Source: Anaerolineae bacterium (GTDB lineage: Bacteria; Chloroflexota; Anaerolineae; Anaerolineales; RBG-16-64-43). From it: a stretch of 34,298 nucleotides of DNA. How positions within the stretch are numbered: the first letter of the stretch is position 1; the number at the start of each line of letters is the position of its first letter. A program made the translations under genes and the position numbers. Positions 24,825-33,616 of the stretch are shown here, one piece after another. Location: assembly GCA_003141675.1 (NCBI GenBank), contig PLND01000100.1, positions 1 to 34,298 of the forward strand, read 5' to 3'. Below the pieces are notes generated by a model. It ran no database searches. It saw nothing but the letters and a program-made list of their open reading frames with translations, and was not told the origin of the DNA.

Positions 24825-27455
24825 TTAGGCGGGTGCAGTGGCTTCAGTAACTTCGGTGGCGGGAACCTGGGGCAGCAAAAAGCGGAACACCGCGCCGCCC
24901 TCGGCGGGGGAATCCACCCAGATGCGGCCGCCGTGCGCTTTCACCGCCAGGCGGCAAAAAGCCAGCCCGAGACCGAGCCCCTTGGGCGCGCCCACGCGCT
25001 CGATCCGGCTGTATTTATCGAAGATGCGGTGTCGTTCCTCGGTGGGAATCCCCGGACCGGAATCGGCCACCGAGAATAGCACCGATTGGTCAATGTTTTC
25101 CGCCGTCAGGCGGATGTTTCCGCCGCTGGGCGTGTATTTAACCGCATTGTCGAGCAGGTTGCTGATCACGCGCCGGATCATATCGGAATCGGCCTCGACG
25201 GCGGGCAGCGAGAGGGGGATGTGCATCTGCAGGATGATGCCCTTGCCTTCCGCCACCGGCTGGGCTTCCTCGACCGCCTCGGCGGCGAGCGCCGCCAGGG
25301 AAACCTTCGTTCGGCGGATTACCGCGCGTCCCTCTTCCAGCCGGCGCAGGTCGAGCAGCGAGTCGATCATTCTTGAAAGGCGGCGCGCCGAGCGCAGGGA
25401 AATCGACAGCAGCGAGCGGACCGTTTCATCGGCGGGCGGCGGGTCGTTGAGAAGCTGCAGGCTGGAAATCACGTTGCCCAGCGGCGAGCGCATATCGTGG
25501 AAAAGCATCGAAGTCAGATCGGAGCGCAGTTCGTCGAGTTCGGCCCGTTCGGCGATGTCGCGCACGATCCACTGGACCGTGTCCTGCTCCGACTCAGCCC
25601 CCGGGATGCGCTTGATATATAGTTCCACCGGTGCTTGATTGCCGCTCTTGGTGCGCAGACGAGTTTCGTAATTGCGCACATCCCCTTGCTTGATGTCGGC
25701 GAACCGCTGACCGAGCTTGCCGGTGTAGATCGGATGCAGGGCCTGGATGCGCAGCAGGAGGAGTTCCTCGCGCGAGTATCCGGTGAATTGCAGCGCGCGC
25801 GCATTGGCGTCGACGATCTTCCCGTCCAGGTCGGTGATCAGAATGGGATCGATGCTGTCCTGGAACAGGGTGAGATAGCGCTGTTCGGCAGAGCGCGTGG
25901 CGGCGAACAGCTGGGCGTGCCAAATGGCCGAAGCCGCGAGACCCGTGAGGTATTCCAGCACCTGCACCGAGGTTTCGCTGAACGCGCCGCGGCGCGGATT
26001 GATCACTTCCACCACGCCGAGGATTTTCTCGCGCAGCAGGATCGGGACGCAGGCGATGGCCCGCGTGGCGAATCCAGTCTGCTCGTCGACCTTGCCGTAG
26101 AAGCGATCGTCCAGGCGCGTATCCGCCACCACCAGCGGGCGGCCGTTTTGCACAACCCATCCGGCCACTCCCTGCCCGGGTTTAAGGCGCAGGTCCTTAA
26201 TCGAAGCGCTCTTGGGTCCGGTGGCGCTGCGGTATACAAGATCCCCGGTGGATTCTTCCGTCAGCGCGATCGAACCCGCCTCCACCCCCAGCAGCGAGAC
26301 CACCCGGCTCAGAACCTGGTTGAGCACCTCGTCCAGATCCAGGCTGGAGACGATCATACGCGTGGTTTCGGCCATGAGTGCCATGGTGCGAGTCTGCTGT
26401 TGGCTTTCGGCGTATAGCCGCGCGTTGGCAACCGCAGAGGCGGCCTGGTCGGCAAACGCCAGCACCAGCTGCGCATCGGCCTGGGTATAGGCATTGGGCA
26501 GGTAGCTGTCCACGGTGAGCACGCCCACCGGCTGGTCGAACATCAGGAGCGGGACGCCGAGCCAGCCGTGGATCTTCGAAGTTTCCGGAATATCATCGGA
26601 GCCCACCCAGCCCGGGTCGTTTTGCACGTCGTCGATGATCACGACCTTGCGTTCCTTGAATGTGCGCCAGGAAGGATTGTCTTTCTGGTAGGGGAATTGG
26701 AAATCCTGGATTTTGGAGGACTGTGAAAAGCCCCGCGAGGCCGCGACCCGCAGCATATCGCCGCTGAGGAGAAGCAGCGAGGCTGAATCGAACTTGACCA
26801 CCTGCGAAAGCTGGTCGAGGATGAGCGGGAATACTTTCTCCGGCTCCAGCGAGGAGTTGATCGTCCGAGCCACTTCCTGGAGCGTCAGGGCGAACATGCG
26901 CCGCTGGTGCTCGAGCGTATACAGCCGCGCGTTTTCCACGGCCAGGCCGACTGTTTCCGCGATCGCCGCCACCAGTTGCATGTCTTCACTGGAAAAATGG
27001 CTGGGCGAGGGATGCACCAGCGTCATCACCCCGACCACGCCCTCGCGACCCTGCAGCGGCGCGCTGATCGCCGAACGGGTGGGCTGCGACGCGTGGGCAT
27101 GGGTTGGAACCGTGGCGGGGGCGGAGGGAATCCAGCGTGGATCGTTTTGCGTATCCTCGACCAGCGCCACCTTGCCGTTGGAAAGCACCCACCCGGCCAA
27201 TCCCTGGCGGAGAACCGGCGCCATTTGCTGGACGGCTTTGGGAATGATCGATCCACCCACCGCGACGGAAGCATCCAGAACTTTGCCGCCTTCCCCCACC
27301 ACCGCGATGCTTCCGCCTGCGGCGTTGAGGGATTCCACCATCAGCTCCAGCGTACGGCTGAGCACCTCGGAAAGGTCCAGATACCGCGAGAGCTCCCGGC
27401 TGAGGTTGTAAATGACTTCCAAATGCTGGCGAACACGGTCGCTTTCGATGTTCAC
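24825..27455 (-). CDS. Sensor histidine kinase with three GAF domains and a PAS domain
   Basis: An 876-residue cytoplasmic kinase with no membrane helix evident. Three GAF domains occupy about residues 25-190, 200-355 and 370-530; a PAS domain follows (about 540-650, ITDLDGKIVDANARALQFTGYS). The transmitter has the phospho-acceptor His653 in LFHDMRSPLGNV, an N-box NLLDNAVKYTP, G1 VADSGPGIP, an F-box IFDKYSR and G2 GLGLGLAF, so it appears fully active. It starts at GTG 27455, overlapping the recombinase-like gene stop (GTGA). No response regulator is encoded nearby, so the output partner is elsewhere or is one of the neighbours. Confidence 0.9.
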   Translation of the reverse strand: MNIESDRVRQHLEVIYNLSRELSRYLDLSEVLSRTLELMVESLNAAGGSIAVVGEGGKVLDASVAVGGSIIPKAVQQMAPVLRQGLAGWVLSNGKVALVEDTQNDPRWIPSAPATVPTHAHASQPTRSAISAPLQGREGVVGVMTLVHPSPSHFSSEDMQLVAAIAETVGLAVENARLYTLEHQRRMFALTLQEVARTINSSLEPEKVFPLILDQLSQVVKFDSASLLLLSGDMLRVAASRGFSQSSKIQDFQFPYQKDNPSWRTFKERKVVIIDDVQNDPGWVGSDDIPETSKIHGWLGVPLLMFDQPVGVLTVDSYLPNAYTQADAQLVLAFADQAASAVANARLYAESQQQTRTMALMAETTRMIVSSLDLDEVLNQVLSRVVSLLGVEAGSIALTEESTGDLVYRSATGPKSASIKDLRLKPGQGVAGWVVQNGRPLVVADTRLDDRFYGKVDEQTGFATRAIACVPILLREKILGVVEVINPRRGAFSETSVQVLEYLTGLAASAIWHAQLFAATRSAEQRYLTLFQDSIDPILITDLDGKIVDANARALQFTGYSREELLLLRIQALHPIYTGKLGQRFADIKQGDVRNYETRLRTKSGNQAPVELYIKRIPGAESEQDTVQWIVRDIAERAELDELRSDLTSMLFHDMRSPLGNVISSLQLLNDPPPADETVRSLLSISLRSARRLSRMIDSLLDLRRLEEGRAVIRRTKVSLAALAAEAVEEAQPVAEGKGIILQMHIPLSLPAVEADSDMIRRVISNLLDNAVKYTPSGGNIRLTAENIDQSVLFSVADSGPGIPTEERHRIFDKYSRIERVGAPKGLGLGLAFCRLAVKAHGGRIWVDSPAEGGAVFRFLLPQVPATEVTEATAPA

Positions 27456-28426
27456 GCGGCGTCCTCCATGGACAGCGAGTATAGCACATCGGGCGGACTT
27501 TCTTCCGGGACGGATTCCATTAATCGTTCAATTTTTTTCCCCACCTCGCGCCATTGCATCCGGCTCAGCCCGAGCTTTTGACGGACTGCGTCGGGTTCGA
27601 TCCCGCGCCGGCGGTCCAACACCGCGCATGTCCACCGGCACATATCGAAGGAAAGATGTTTGGAAAGCCCGGCGTGGCTGCCGATCTCTTCCAACAGGTA
27701 CTCCAGCCTCCGCGGGGACCAGGGGAAGACCCGGTCGGACGGATCATATTGCTCCCGATAGCGCGTGTAGGCATCCACCCAGTCGCGTGAGATCGCGATT
27801 TTCCGTTCCTTGAAGCGCTGACGGGGATTCCCATAGCGAACGAATATGTAGGGCTCGGCCCCGCCGGTTTCGACGTGGTTCATACGTAATCCGATACATT
27901 CCCCTTTTTTGATTCCGGCCTGGAGCAGCAGCGAAACCAAAACGAACGGCCGGTCGTCCGGCCGGCCCTGACCGGGAGCCGCGCGCATGGCGCGCGCCGC
28001 CGTCAGCACCCGCCGGGTTTCCTCGTGCGTGAGAATTTCCGGCAACGGGCTTTGGACCAGACGCTGGACGACGGATGCGGCCGGATCGGCGGCAAGGATG
28101 CCCTCTTCGGTGAGGTGGCGAAAGAAGGATTTGACGGAGGTGATTCTGCGTGAATAGGTTTTGGGGCTGCAGGGTACCCCGCGTTCGGTTTCCATCCACC
28201 GGAAGAACTCCTGCAAATCCCTGGTCGAGATCCCACCCACAGCGCGCCCGCCTCCCAGGTAGTGCAGCAATAGGCGGAGGTCGGTAGTAAAGGCGTTGAC
28301 CGTATTCCGGGCGTTGCCGCCTGAGCGCAGGGCCTGTTCCCAGACTGCGATCGCCGCGCTGAGGGAATCCTCCCCGCGCAAATCGCCCGTATTTTCCCTG
28401 GAAAGGCTTTCCGCAGATGGCGCCAT
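27452..28426 (-). CDS. Tyrosine-recombinase-fold protein without catalytic residues
   Basis: A 324-residue protein from ATG 28426; an upstream TTG lies in the -35 box of the promoter and is excluded. The N-terminal half (about 20-115) looks like a core-binding SAM-like domain (NTVNAFTTDLRLLLHYLGG, SPKTYSRRITSVKSFFRHL). The C-terminal half follows the catalytic domain of XerC/D, but the catalytic Arg I motif TGLRxSE is QAGIKKGEC (Lys173), the HxxRH box reads DMCRW (261-265), and the tyrosine region after LG reads LGLSRMQWREV with no Tyr. It should not cut DNA, but may bind it. It is translationally coupled to the histidine kinase. Confidence 0.75.
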   Translation of the reverse strand: MAPSAESLSRENTGDLRGEDSLSAAIAVWEQALRSGGNARNTVNAFTTDLRLLLHYLGGGRAVGGISTRDLQEFFRWMETERGVPCSPKTYSRRITSVKSFFRHLTEEGILAADPAASVVQRLVQSPLPEILTHEETRRVLTAARAMRAAPGQGRPDDRPFVLVSLLLQAGIKKGECIGLRMNHVETGGAEPYIFVRYGNPRQRFKERKIAISRDWVDAYTRYREQYDPSDRVFPWSPRRLEYLLEEIGSHAGLSKHLSFDMCRWTCAVLDRRRGIEPDAVRQKLGLSRMQWREVGKKIERLMESVPEESPPDVLYSLSMEDAA

Positions 28427-28490
28427 GGTGTCCGGGGGTTCCGAGGTCCTTTCCGGCCGGCGGAAGAGATGCCACCGGCGGATGGCATCC

Positions 28491-28519
28491 AATGTATGCC
28501 GGGCGGGTCGCAGAGTCAA
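28491..28519 (-). promoter_or_regulatory. Sigma70 promoter of the recombinase-like/kinase/MBL operon
   Basis: TTGACT (28519-28514), a 17-base spacer and TACATT (28496-28491) on the minus strand. Transcription would start near 28484, giving a leader of about 58 bases before ATG 28426. Confidence 0.6.
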
Positions 28520-28569: not shown

Positions 28570-29793
28570 TCAGGAATTTAGAATTCCGTTCAGGAGGGTG
28601 TGAATGGCGTCGTAATTGGGCAAAACGACCATCTTGCCGTCGGGTGTGATCCAGTTATCTCCGTACGTATCCGGAATGAGCGTTACTCGTGTGATCGAAG
28701 AGATGGAGATGGACGTAGCAATATCGGCAAACGGGGTGATCGCATCCAGCGTCAGGTCGCTTTCGACGTAATTGGCGAGGGTAACGAAAAAGCCGGGAAT
28801 GTTGGAAAGCGCGTTCTTATTCAGCAGCGTCTGGGCGATCCCCAGGATCACCTCCTGCTGGCGCCGGACGCGGTCGAAATCGCTGGTTGTCTTTCGGGAG
28901 CGCACATACCATAGCGCCATTTCCCCATCCATATGATGCCACCCGGTTCCCAGGGAGAAGGTGCCCATTCCCTGCCGCTTGTCGGTCAGGCCGTATTGGG
29001 AATACACATCGATCCCGCCCAGGGTGTTGATCAGCGCCTGAAACCCCGAAAAGTCCATCAGGGCGTAATGGTCGATCGTCAGGCCGAAGTTGTACCGCAT
29101 CGTGTCTTGGAAGAGGCCGAAACCCCCGCCCGGATAGTTGAGGCGCATGCCCTCACCGAATGCTGCGTTGACCCGTTCCATGCCGTAGGCGGGGATGTAG
29201 ACGTACAAATCGCGCGGAAAAGAAATCAGCGCGGCGGTTTTGTTGGTCCGATTGAGCGTGAGGATCATGATCGTATCGGTGTTGAAGGAACCGCCGGCCG
29301 GTCGCACATCGCTTCCGAGCAGGGCGATGTTCAGGATGTCGTCACTGGTCTTGAATTCCTCCACCGGCTTGGGAACCTCGATCAACGGGGGATAGATCGG
29401 CCCGGCATACGGAGCCCAGGGAGGCGAGTCCCCGGGCAGGGTCGGTGTCCGGAGCGGGGAGACCGCAATCGGAGGCTCGGTGGGTGTGCTCTGACCTTCG
29501 GGTCCAAAGGGGGTCGAGGTGGACGTCGCCGGCAGGAAGGGAGTAGGAGTCAGGGTGGGCGGCCCCTCGCGCGCCGCGACAGGGGCGTACGACCGGATGC
29601 TCAAATAAAGAATGGAACACAACACAACCATGCCGAGCGATCCCCCCAGTAGAATGTATCGGATTTTAAGATATTTCCGCAGGGATCCCGCCGCGGGAAG
29701 GCGCGGGAGACGGATCCGTCTTCCGATTGATCCCACTTGGTTCAGGACTCGGCTGACGAGTTTTTTTAAAGAGGTGATCATCCGCTGAAACAT
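28570..29793 (-). CDS. LytR-CpsA-Psr (LCP) family cell-wall ligase
   Basis: A 407-residue membrane-anchored protein. A basic N-terminus is followed by one membrane helix (about residues 45-65), a Thr/Pro-rich linker (TPTPFLPATSTSTPF and beyond) and an extracellular LCP domain. LCP motifs are intact: LLGSDVR, TDTIMILTLNR, LISFPRDLYVYIP with the lipid-phosphate-binding Arg, RVNAAF and RVRRQQEVI. It would transfer glycopolymers from lipid carriers to the cell wall. The open frame extends to 30234, but a TATAAT box at 29806-29801 places the start at ATG 29793 (leaderless) or ATG 29781. Confidence 0.88.
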   Translation of the reverse strand: MFQRMITSLKKLVSRVLNQVGSIGRRIRLPRLPAAGSLRKYLKIRYILLGGSLGMVVLCSILYLSIRSYAPVAAREGPPTLTPTPFLPATSTSTPFGPEGQSTPTEPPIAVSPLRTPTLPGDSPPWAPYAGPIYPPLIEVPKPVEEFKTSDDILNIALLGSDVRPAGGSFNTDTIMILTLNRTNKTAALISFPRDLYVYIPAYGMERVNAAFGEGMRLNYPGGGFGLFQDTMRYNFGLTIDHYALMDFSGFQALINTLGGIDVYSQYGLTDKRQGMGTFSLGTGWHHMDGEMALWYVRSRKTTSDFDRVRRQQEVILGIAQTLLNKNALSNIPGFFVTLANYVESDLTLDAITPFADIATSISISSITRVTLIPDTYGDNWITPDGKMVVLPNYDAIHTLLNGILNS

Positions 29794-29800
29794 CCCGTGC

Positions 29801-29806
29801 ATTATA
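29801..29806 (-). promoter_or_regulatory. -10 box for the LCP gene
   Basis: TATAAT on the minus strand, seven bases before ATG 29793, implying a leaderless mRNA. A weak -35 (TTCTTC) lies 17 bases upstream. Confidence 0.5.
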
Positions 29807-30105
29807 CGACTGCTTCCGGGCAGGAAGAAAATCGCATTCCTTTGGGGCAAGCGACCTCCGAAAACTCTGGTTTCCGGATGATTCCGCAAATACTGTATGT
29901 CGAATGAAAAACCATCCGACAGGATGGCGTCGCATCCCCCGATTCTTCCGAGCAAGAGTCGTGCCTGCGGGCCGCCCATCCGGCGTTCGGTCTTCCTTTT
30001 AAAGGAGTCTTTCCGGATTACCGTGAATTTCACGGGGGAAAGAAGCTGGCGGCCGTCAGGATGACCAATAAACCCTATGCCGGCTGGATCGAATGAGTGC
30101 TGGGC
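29807..30105. other. Intergenic region between divergent LCP and rplS genes
   Basis: About 300 bases between two divergent promoters. It is open in one minus-strand frame but lacks codon patterns or motifs I recognise, and the -10 box of the LCP gene excludes it from that protein. I see no RNA gene or repeat here. Confidence 0.5.
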
Positions 30106-30137
30106 TTGACAGGCATATACTCGCTGTATGGTATAAT
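30106..30137 (+). promoter_or_regulatory. Promoter of rplS
   Basis: TTGACA (30106-30111) and TATAAT (30132-30137) with an upstream TGG extension of the -10 box. The spacer of 20 bases is longer than usual, so the extended -10 element may matter more than the -35. Confidence 0.65.
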
Positions 30138-30143
30138 CTGCCC

Positions 30144-30167
30144 GCCGTCCAGGATGTTTCTGGCGGC
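30144..30167 (+). promoter_or_regulatory. Hairpin in the rplS leader
   Basis: GCCG-T-CCAG pairs with CTGG-CGGC, with one bulged T and a 7-base loop, in the 59-base leader of the L19 gene. Ribosomal protein leaders often carry autoregulatory structures; whether this one binds L19 is unknown. Confidence 0.3.
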
Positions 30168-30196
30168 AAATTGCTGTCTTTCCAGGAAAAACCACG

Positions 30197-30550
30197 ATGA
30201 ATGAAAAAATCCGGGCATTACAAGCCGCCCCCAATCCGAACGTGCCGGAACTTAATCCCGGCGATACCGTCAGCGTTCACGTGAAAATCAAGGAAGGCGA
30301 CAAAGAGCGCATCCAGGAATTCCGCGGGACGGTCATCCGCATCCGCAAAGGCGGAGCCCAGGCGAATTTCACCGTGCGACGCGTGGCCTCGCACGGGATC
30401 GGCGTCGAGCGCACCTTCCCTTCGCGCTCGCCGAGCCTGGACAAGGTGGTGGTGCAGAAGGGCGCGCGGGTCCGTCGGGCGCAACTGTATTTCCTGCGCG
30501 GCCTGCGCGGAAAGCGCGCACGCCTGCACGGAAAGTCTGAAGGCGGCTGA
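30197..30550 (+). CDS. rplS: 50S ribosomal protein L19
   Basis: A 117-residue basic protein of the normal L19 length. Conserved blocks are [51 protein letters not shown] and ARLHGK near the end; the C-terminal region [14 protein letters not shown] is typical. L19 sits at the interface of the 30S and 50S subunits. It is transcribed alone from its own promoter and followed by a clear terminator, unlike the rpsP-trmD-rplS arrangement common elsewhere. Confidence 0.97.
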
Positions 30551-32623: not shown

Positions 32624-33616
32624 ATGAACCACAGACCGCAATACTTAACGGTTTTCCAGGCGATAGAAGGCTTCATTCTTCACAAGAACGCGCAAGGACT
32701 CAGCCAGAGAACGGTCAGTAGTTATAAGGATATTCTTGAGCACTGGGCGGCGCGCATCGGTGGCGAGACCCAGGTTCCCAGCATTACCTCGCAAGACCTG
32801 AAACGCTACTTGGTCTGGAAAACAACCGAATACATCCCCATCCGCAAGAACGGAAAGAAGCACCCACTTTCACCCAAAACGACACGGAACATCTACGTCA
32901 CCTTCCAGTCTTTCTTCCGGTGGGTTGGCGAGGAATTTGAGTTTCACAGCCCGATGAAGGGAATCCCTGTTCCGAAGTTTGTATCACCTCCGGTCGAACC
33001 GTTCACAAAAGATGAAGTAGTATCCCTAATAAAAGCATGCGTTGAAAAACGAGAAAGCCGGCCATCTAACCGCCATGCATTCACCACGCGCCGGCCGTTC
33101 ACACTCCGGGATCAAACGGTCATCAAGTTCCTACTGGATACTGGCTTGCGCGCATCGGAATTCGCGAGTTTGCGGATTAGCGATGTGGATCTGGTAACCG
33201 GGCGGGTAATTATTCGCACCGGCAAAGAGGGCGGGGCGAAGGGCGGGCAGGGGCGGATTGTCTTTGTGGGCAATGAAATCCGGCGCTCTTTATGGAAATA
33301 TCTCAAGGACAGACCTGACGCACATGAACCGGAGGCACCGCTTTTTCTGAACAACCAGCAACAGCCATATTGCCGGAATAGCCTGCGGCTGTTCATCACC
33401 AAGCTCGGTAAGCGTCTGGGGATTAAAGCCCATCCGCACAAGTTTCGGCACACCTTCGCCATAAACTACCTACGCAACGGCGGGGACGTGTTCACATTGC
33501 AGGACCTTCTCGGCCACCACAGCTTGGAAATGGTGCGTCATTATGCCCGGCTGGCGGAAGTGGATATCGCCGCGGCGCACAAGCGGGCGAGCCCGGTGGA
33601 TAATTGGAGACTGTGA
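32624..33616 (+). CDS. Tyrosine recombinase (phage/island integrase type)
   Basis: A 330-residue recombinase with SD AAGGAG. The N-terminal core-binding domain spans about residues 8-115. All catalytic residues are present: Arg176 in DTGLRASEF, Lys201 in the beta-hairpin TGKEGG, the HxxRH box HKFRH (272-276), His298 in LGHHS and nucleophile Tyr307 in VRHYARL. It is XerC/D-like in plan. Its position directly downstream of a tRNA gene and its neighbour, AT-rich DNA, suggest it inserted a genomic island at this tRNA. Confidence 0.92.
   Translation: MNHRPQYLTVFQAIEGFILHKNAQGLSQRTVSSYKDILEHWAARIGGETQVPSITSQDLKRYLVWKTTEYIPIRKNGKKHPLSPKTTRNIYVTFQSFFRWVGEEFEFHSPMKGIPVPKFVSPPVEPFTKDEVVSLIKACVEKRESRPSNRHAFTTRRPFTLRDQTVIKFLLDTGLRASEFASLRISDVDLVTGRVIIRTGKEGGAKGGQGRIVFVGNEIRRSLWKYLKDRPDAHEPEAPLFLNNQQQPYCRNSLRLFITKLGKRLGIKAHPHKFRHTFAINYLRNGGDVFTLQDLLGHHSLEMVRHYARLAEVDIAAAHKRASPVDNWRL

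Follow-up and report, generated by a model that had tools for sequence, protein, structure and literature searches.

Sequence comparisons place a degenerate tyrosine recombinase of Anaerolineae within an ancient, vertically inherited clade of single-copy proteins of the Chloroflexota. These Xer-type recombinase homologues, here called dead Xer, are most likely DNA-binding control proteins rather than enzymes. The reading that we favor, with somewhat better than even confidence, is that dead Xer would act as a sequence-specific, non-cleaving DNA-binding protein that reads an Xer/dif-type half-site and probably represses its own gene in most Anaerolineae. The window, that is the whole stretch of 34,298 nucleotides analyzed here, contains one member of the clade, and the features on which the discussion relies are the following.

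27452-28426, minus strand: non-catalytic Xer-type tyrosine recombinase homologue, 324 aa, from domain matches, an AlphaFold2 model and a tree
27908-27910, minus strand: codon of K173, at the position of Arg I; Lys in 82 of 82 aligned homologues
27632-27646, minus strand: DMCRW, residues 261-265, replacing HxxRH, with R264 as the retained Arg II; invariant in 82 of 82
28491-28519, minus strand: sigma-70-type promoter TTGACT-17-TACATT of the dead recombinase gene; conserved in three species
24825-27455, minus strand: sensor histidine kinase, GAF-GAF-GAF-PAS-HisKA-HATPase, 876 aa, GTG start; linkage limited to two genera
28570-30234, minus strand: LCP (LytR-CpsA-Psr) glycopolymer transferase, with a mechanical start (the true start is probably internal); upstream neighbor conserved in Anaerolineales

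Fold and catalytic positions of the window protein

The reading frame runs intact on the minus strand from an ATG at 28426 to a TGA at 27454-27452. The coordinates and the unbroken frame given by a first-pass annotation of this DNA therefore stand, with the strand to be given as minus. That annotation had also claimed a tyrosine recombinase fold. The protein matches the SAM-like core-binding domain Phage_int_SAM_1 (PF02899) at 35.5 bits and passes the Phage_integrase model (PF00589) marginally, at 28.0 bits for a cut-off of 27.1. Its AlphaFold2 model, computed with 82 homologues as input, has a mean pLDDT of 89.6, and Foldseek matches it to XerA, lambda Int, XerH, Cre, and the Tn1549 Int, with TM-scores of about 0.4-0.6 indicating that the placement of the two domains is unlike, or uncertain relative to, that of each solved structure. 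A tyrosine recombinase fold is thus predicted, as had been claimed, and the core-binding domain and the catalytic-domain fold place the protein in this superfamily. It is not an equivalog of XerC, XerD, or XerA (76 vs. 330 bits for TIGR02225, 69 vs. 220 for NF040815) and it lies far under all Xer equivalog cut-offs in NCBIfam. A search of viral contigs found no relatives, PHROGs returned only a generic integrase, and PADLOC returned nothing. Among structures, a profile match also showed an Xer-like N-terminal half in chain 14 of PDB 9i5v, a 401-aa protein named ribosome hibernation factor RaiA.

With respect to the catalytic set R-K-H-R-(H/W)-Y, Arg I is replaced by K173, the HxxRH box reads D261-M-C-R-W265, LGH has become LGL, and the position of the nucleophile carries no Tyr; both active-site His are thus missing. 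No residue could be assigned confidently as the beta-hairpin Lys, and a basic stretch, YKERK, is conserved near its expected position. In contrast, essentially all homologues retain two residues, Arg II (R264) and a Glu (E176) placed three positions beyond Arg I. Hence, the earlier claim that all key catalytic positions were lost holds for Arg I, both His, and Tyr but is overstated as a whole, because R264 and E176 remain. Realignment of 62 clade members recovered no intact R-K-H-R-H-Y set: one has Arg I, none has the HxxRH His, the LGH His, or the Tyr, 61 have Arg II, and all 62 have the Glu. In the comparison set, all catalytic residues are retained by 21 of 21 intact Xer proteins and by 4 of 4 proteins of the A2 family described below.

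Across 82 Anaerolineae sequences, K173, K174, E176, and the run S259-F-D-M-C-R-W-T-C267 are invariant, as are about 50 further columns, giving a total of about 60. Since the losses are invariant in the 82 homologues and define the clade, they are far above chance, and a motif that departs from the catalytic consensus yet never varies argues for a changed function, not for decay. The idea that C86, C177, C263, and C267 bind a metal was rejected, as the four Cys do not persist together beyond core Anaerolineales.

We regard it as very improbable that the protein still cleaves DNA with shifted residues, using the Lys or Arg that follows the Arg I position and a Tyr located 3-4 residues later in the Kted-like and weaker groups. 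Retention of Arg II and the Glu would fit such a scheme, as would the Tyr that members outside Anaerolineae have 12-13 residues past LGL instead of the usual 9. However, Anaerolineae members have no displaced Tyr, and the His of both HxxRH and LGH are gone throughout the clade. Even for the members with a displaced Tyr we do not think, from their sequences, that cleavage is likely, because the two His are missing. In the Kted-like group (loci L158-L176), HxxRH is replaced by QxLRD and the Tyr is displaced by three residues; a ComEC-like gene, named by eye, is often found downstream on the opposite strand.

Distribution and phylogeny in Chloroflexota

A profile search of 399 Chloroflexota genomes gave matches in 140, the weakest of which are canonical Xer proteins. 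The order of the window was surveyed in 121 Anaerolineales genomes that are at least 95% complete, and the dead recombinase occurs exactly once in 120 of them. Such single-copy occurrence, together with the roughly 60 invariant columns, implies strong selection. In a tree of 92 sequences, a quick tree with several long branches, all 62 degenerate proteins form one clade (SH-aLRT 100) outside the 21 canonical Xer proteins and the other recombinases, and its sub-clades track taxonomic families. The losses are therefore ancient and shared, and the protein is a conserved non-catalytic one, not a decaying integrase. That it could be a functionless remnant of such an integrase is hardly credible: the active site is degenerate and the gene carries in-frame stops in 4 of the 121 genomes, but a near-universal single copy, invariant columns that include the former active-site motif, and a conserved promoter of its own all speak against it.

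Other Xer proteins are unevenly distributed. In Anaerolineales, no genome of the 121 exceeds the curated cut-off of the canonical XerD model, and only five score above 200 bits. In a sample of the class, the XerD model finds matches in 59 of 61 genomes and exceeds its cut-off in 20, with XerC and XerD often paired and the dead protein alongside. A catalytically complete single Xer-like recombinase, A2, is found in 101 of the 121 Anaerolineales genomes, which rules out that the dead protein is the order's sole remaining Xer. The 20 genomes devoid of A2, the window's own among them, all retain the dead protein, which is therefore no obligate partner of A2. The window also encodes a second tyrosine recombinase (32624-33616), in which the R, HxxRH, LGH, and Tyr set is intact.

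Promoter, candidate half-site, and resemblance to dif

A promoter had been proposed for the gene, and the TTGACT-17-TACATT element at 28519-28491 is indeed conserved in three species. Of 43 loci from the wider order that have LCP upstream, 37 show a TTGACN-16/18-TANNNT promoter ahead of the gene (0.35 in shuffled sequences). Right behind the -10 box of these Anaerolineales promoters, commonly TAAACT, stands CTATACGMAA. The sequence CTATACGAAA is matched at 9 or 10 of its 10 positions in 57 of 80 loci, for 1.0 expected, and 69 of the 80 Anaerolineales loci carry the half-site CTAYACGMA, that is CTA[TC]ACG[AC]A, in the 230 bp before the gene, for 0.15 expected. The remaining 875 kb contain 14 more copies of this pattern, none of which follows a TTGAC promoter. 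At 28 of 75 sites, a weaker arm in inverted orientation, TKCGY, stands ahead of the half-site; this gives a two-arm form, TTCGY-TAAACTAT-ACGAA, whose 8-bp center covers the -10 box. In other families of Anaerolineae, the half-site is present in 9 of 27 loci (0.46 expected), mostly just past the -10 box, and four of these nine are reversed and read TTCGCATAA. Since both orientations occur, the site is more likely to be duplex DNA bound by a protein than part of an RNA leader.

At the scale of whole genomes, the 13-mer TAAACTATACGMA has 57 matches in the 121 genomes, 37 just upstream of the dead recombinase gene and 20 elsewhere. Its reversed control pattern has 35 matches, more than the 20 off-locus ones. 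Off-locus copies of the strict motif are thus no commoner than chance, and no second genomic target was found for it in these genomes, which would leave more degenerate targets, an architectural role, or sensing through the invariant pocket.

In the window's own family and species, no half-site can be recognized upstream of the gene. The half-site is nearly absent from the Kted-like group (1/20) and absent from the weaker groups (0/26). What applies to the window genome is therefore limited to the conclusion on the protein. The window does contain, immediately after the -10 box, a perfect 7-8-7 inverted repeat, GATGCCA-N8-TGGCATC (28468-28489), which was rejected as an operator since it is absent in the two nearest species.

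Where the half-site is present, we infer from its conserved position that it is bound by the dead protein itself, with repression as the outcome. According to this scheme, an Xer protein would have lost strand cleavage while keeping the two-domain, C-shaped DNA clamp and the phosphate-contacting Arg II, and the invariant K173/DMCRW pocket would have taken the place of the catalytic chemistry. The protein would then recognize YTATRCGMA (reverse complement TKCGYATAR) and, lying across the -10 box and the start region, would occlude the -10 box and repress its own promoter in most Anaerolineae. Conservation near the -10 box could in part reflect promoter constraint, yet the motif is absent from other flanking TTGAC promoters. 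The half-site could also belong to another regulator. As for the proposal that a recombinase fold has been reused as a non-catalytic DNA-binding protein, it is supported by the phylum-wide dead clade, its single-copy universality, and the Xer-like half-site in its own promoter.

The half-site also connects the dead protein to dif. Indeed, the XerC arm of dif has exactly the sequence TTCGCATAA in both Nitrosococcus oceani and Erwinia carotovora (dif arms: PMC2731167). In 16 of 20 further Anaerolineales genomes, A2 genes have a palindrome, TGCTTTCGATAA-GTATTA-TTATCGAAAGCA, 60-180 bp upstream (loci L239, L250, L238, and L285-L304), and its arms (TTTCGATAA) are similar to the dead gene's half-site. 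The geometry of the A2 site is dif-like, whereas the dead gene has a half-site upon a promoter, as would be expected if one protein recombines and the other regulates. A2 and its palindrome could thus be a gene-adjacent Xer/dif module standing in for XerCD. Gene-adjacent modules do exist, since XerS/difSL and XerH have their dif site beside the recombinase gene (PMC2731167, PMC5357621).

These resemblances bear on an unlikely, though not negligible, alternative in which the dead protein is a chromosome-maintenance factor. Here, a gene-adjacent dif module like XerS/difSL would have given rise to an Xer that does not cleave and that marks or shields a dif-type site, or pairs with an active Xer. 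The likeness of the half-site to a dif arm, the known gene-adjacent modules, and the presence in Anaerolineales, where canonical XerC/XerD is almost lost, of a different active Xer (A2) with its own dif-like palindrome are consistent with this role. Against it, the dead gene lies at 0.12-0.67 of the path from dnaA to the far side of the chromosome in 8 genomes, which excludes a location at the terminus (dif), and the dead protein is kept in the genomes that have no A2. Moreover, the strongly conserved element is a half-site that follows the promoter and not a full two-arm site. With no terminus-located 28-bp two-arm dif and a gene off the terminus, dead Xer is not part of an XerCD-dif system. 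Coming back to the self-repressing half-site reader, we suggest tentatively that catalysis was lost early, giving a phylum-wide reader of dif arms that would regulate itself and organize or report on the chromosome, and that Anaerolineales possibly swapped XerC/XerD for a single Xer with a gene-adjacent dif.

Gene neighborhood and comparison with known systems

As the first-pass annotation had stated, the kinase gene begins with a GTG that shares bases with the stop codon of the dead recombinase gene (GTGA), and this overlap is identical in the three closest genomes. From it, the dead protein had been proposed to be the DNA-binding response partner of the GAF kinase, made from a common transcript, an explanation that we now consider quite improbable. 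The overlap and the co-linear frames are conserved in three species, and no response regulator is seen beside the kinase. However, the three-GAF kinase is found downstream only in the window genome and in two genomes of a sister genus, and in none of about 150 other loci, though the dead protein is conserved there. A Pfam search found no receiver domain in the window protein, which, with a kinase pairing restricted to three genomes, does not belong to the two-component response regulators; the kinase is a later neighbor. A dedicated partnership therefore fails as a general mechanism, since lack of conserved linkage in related genomes was what the first-pass annotation itself had named as counting against it, and the overlap may be a local operon arrangement.

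The usual order in Anaerolineales is a 7TM-GAF kinase, a LysM protein, LCP, the dead recombinase, then a convergent tilS (for example L025 1606-6909 and L082 884-6885). This 7TM-GAF-type kinase, different from that of the window, occurs in roughly half of the Anaerolineales loci, some 4 kb upstream, the LysM and LCP genes lying in between. The cluster suggests a cell-envelope context. It is not kept outside Anaerolineales; in the window, LCP remains upstream.

Dead Xer resembles XerC/XerD, XerA, XerH, and XerS in its fold, its SAM-like domain, its type of half-site, and its single chromosomal copy, and the genes of XerS and XerH, like that of dead Xer, are often beside their own site. It differs from all of them in having no catalytic set and no full dif, in its position off the terminus, and in forming a separate clade. 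In other orders, it coexists with XerC/XerD. Streptococci have a chromosomal XerD-like protein (PRK02436 type) that is not known to be used for dif recombination. Its gene context is different from that of dead Xer, and the window protein has no NCBIfam match to NF002685. Annotation as XerC/XerD or integrase in the genomes with dead Xer is no evidence of dimer resolution or mobility, and the finding raises the question of how Anaerolineales resolve chromosome dimers.

In open-access full text, we found no description of the dead-Xer family, and a search for catalytically inactive, pseudoenzyme, or XerD-like recombinases found MrpR alone. MrpR (YopR), the master repressor of the Bacillus subtilis prophage SPbeta, is an experimentally proven dead tyrosine recombinase that represses through a 15-bp element (PMC10516654). 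According to the authors of that study, integrases can be repressors of their own synthesis, and tyrosine recombinases acting as transcription factors are probably more widespread (PMC10516654). The new type of signaling output announced by the first-pass annotation has therefore a precedent as regards reuse of the fold by a regulator, and its kinase part does not extend beyond the three genomes. Both proteins have the two-domain fold and have lost Arg I and His; MrpR does not recombine and binds DNA in a sequence-specific manner. For dead Xer, the residue loss is observed and the binding would follow from the conserved half-site. Descent from the MrpR family is not indicated, 8A0A being absent from the PDB profile matches at E<=0.001. 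In contrast with MrpR, a phage repressor with an SPBRE regulon in which Tyr and Lys are present, dead Xer is chromosomal, single-copy, and phylum-wide, devoid of the Tyr, and retains Arg II and the Glu. The one known regulator among non-catalytic tyrosine recombinases is a phage repressor, and the authors who described it guessed at more widespread recruitment; a chromosomal single-copy clade that nearly every Anaerolineales genome retains, together with its candidate operator, makes this guess directly testable.
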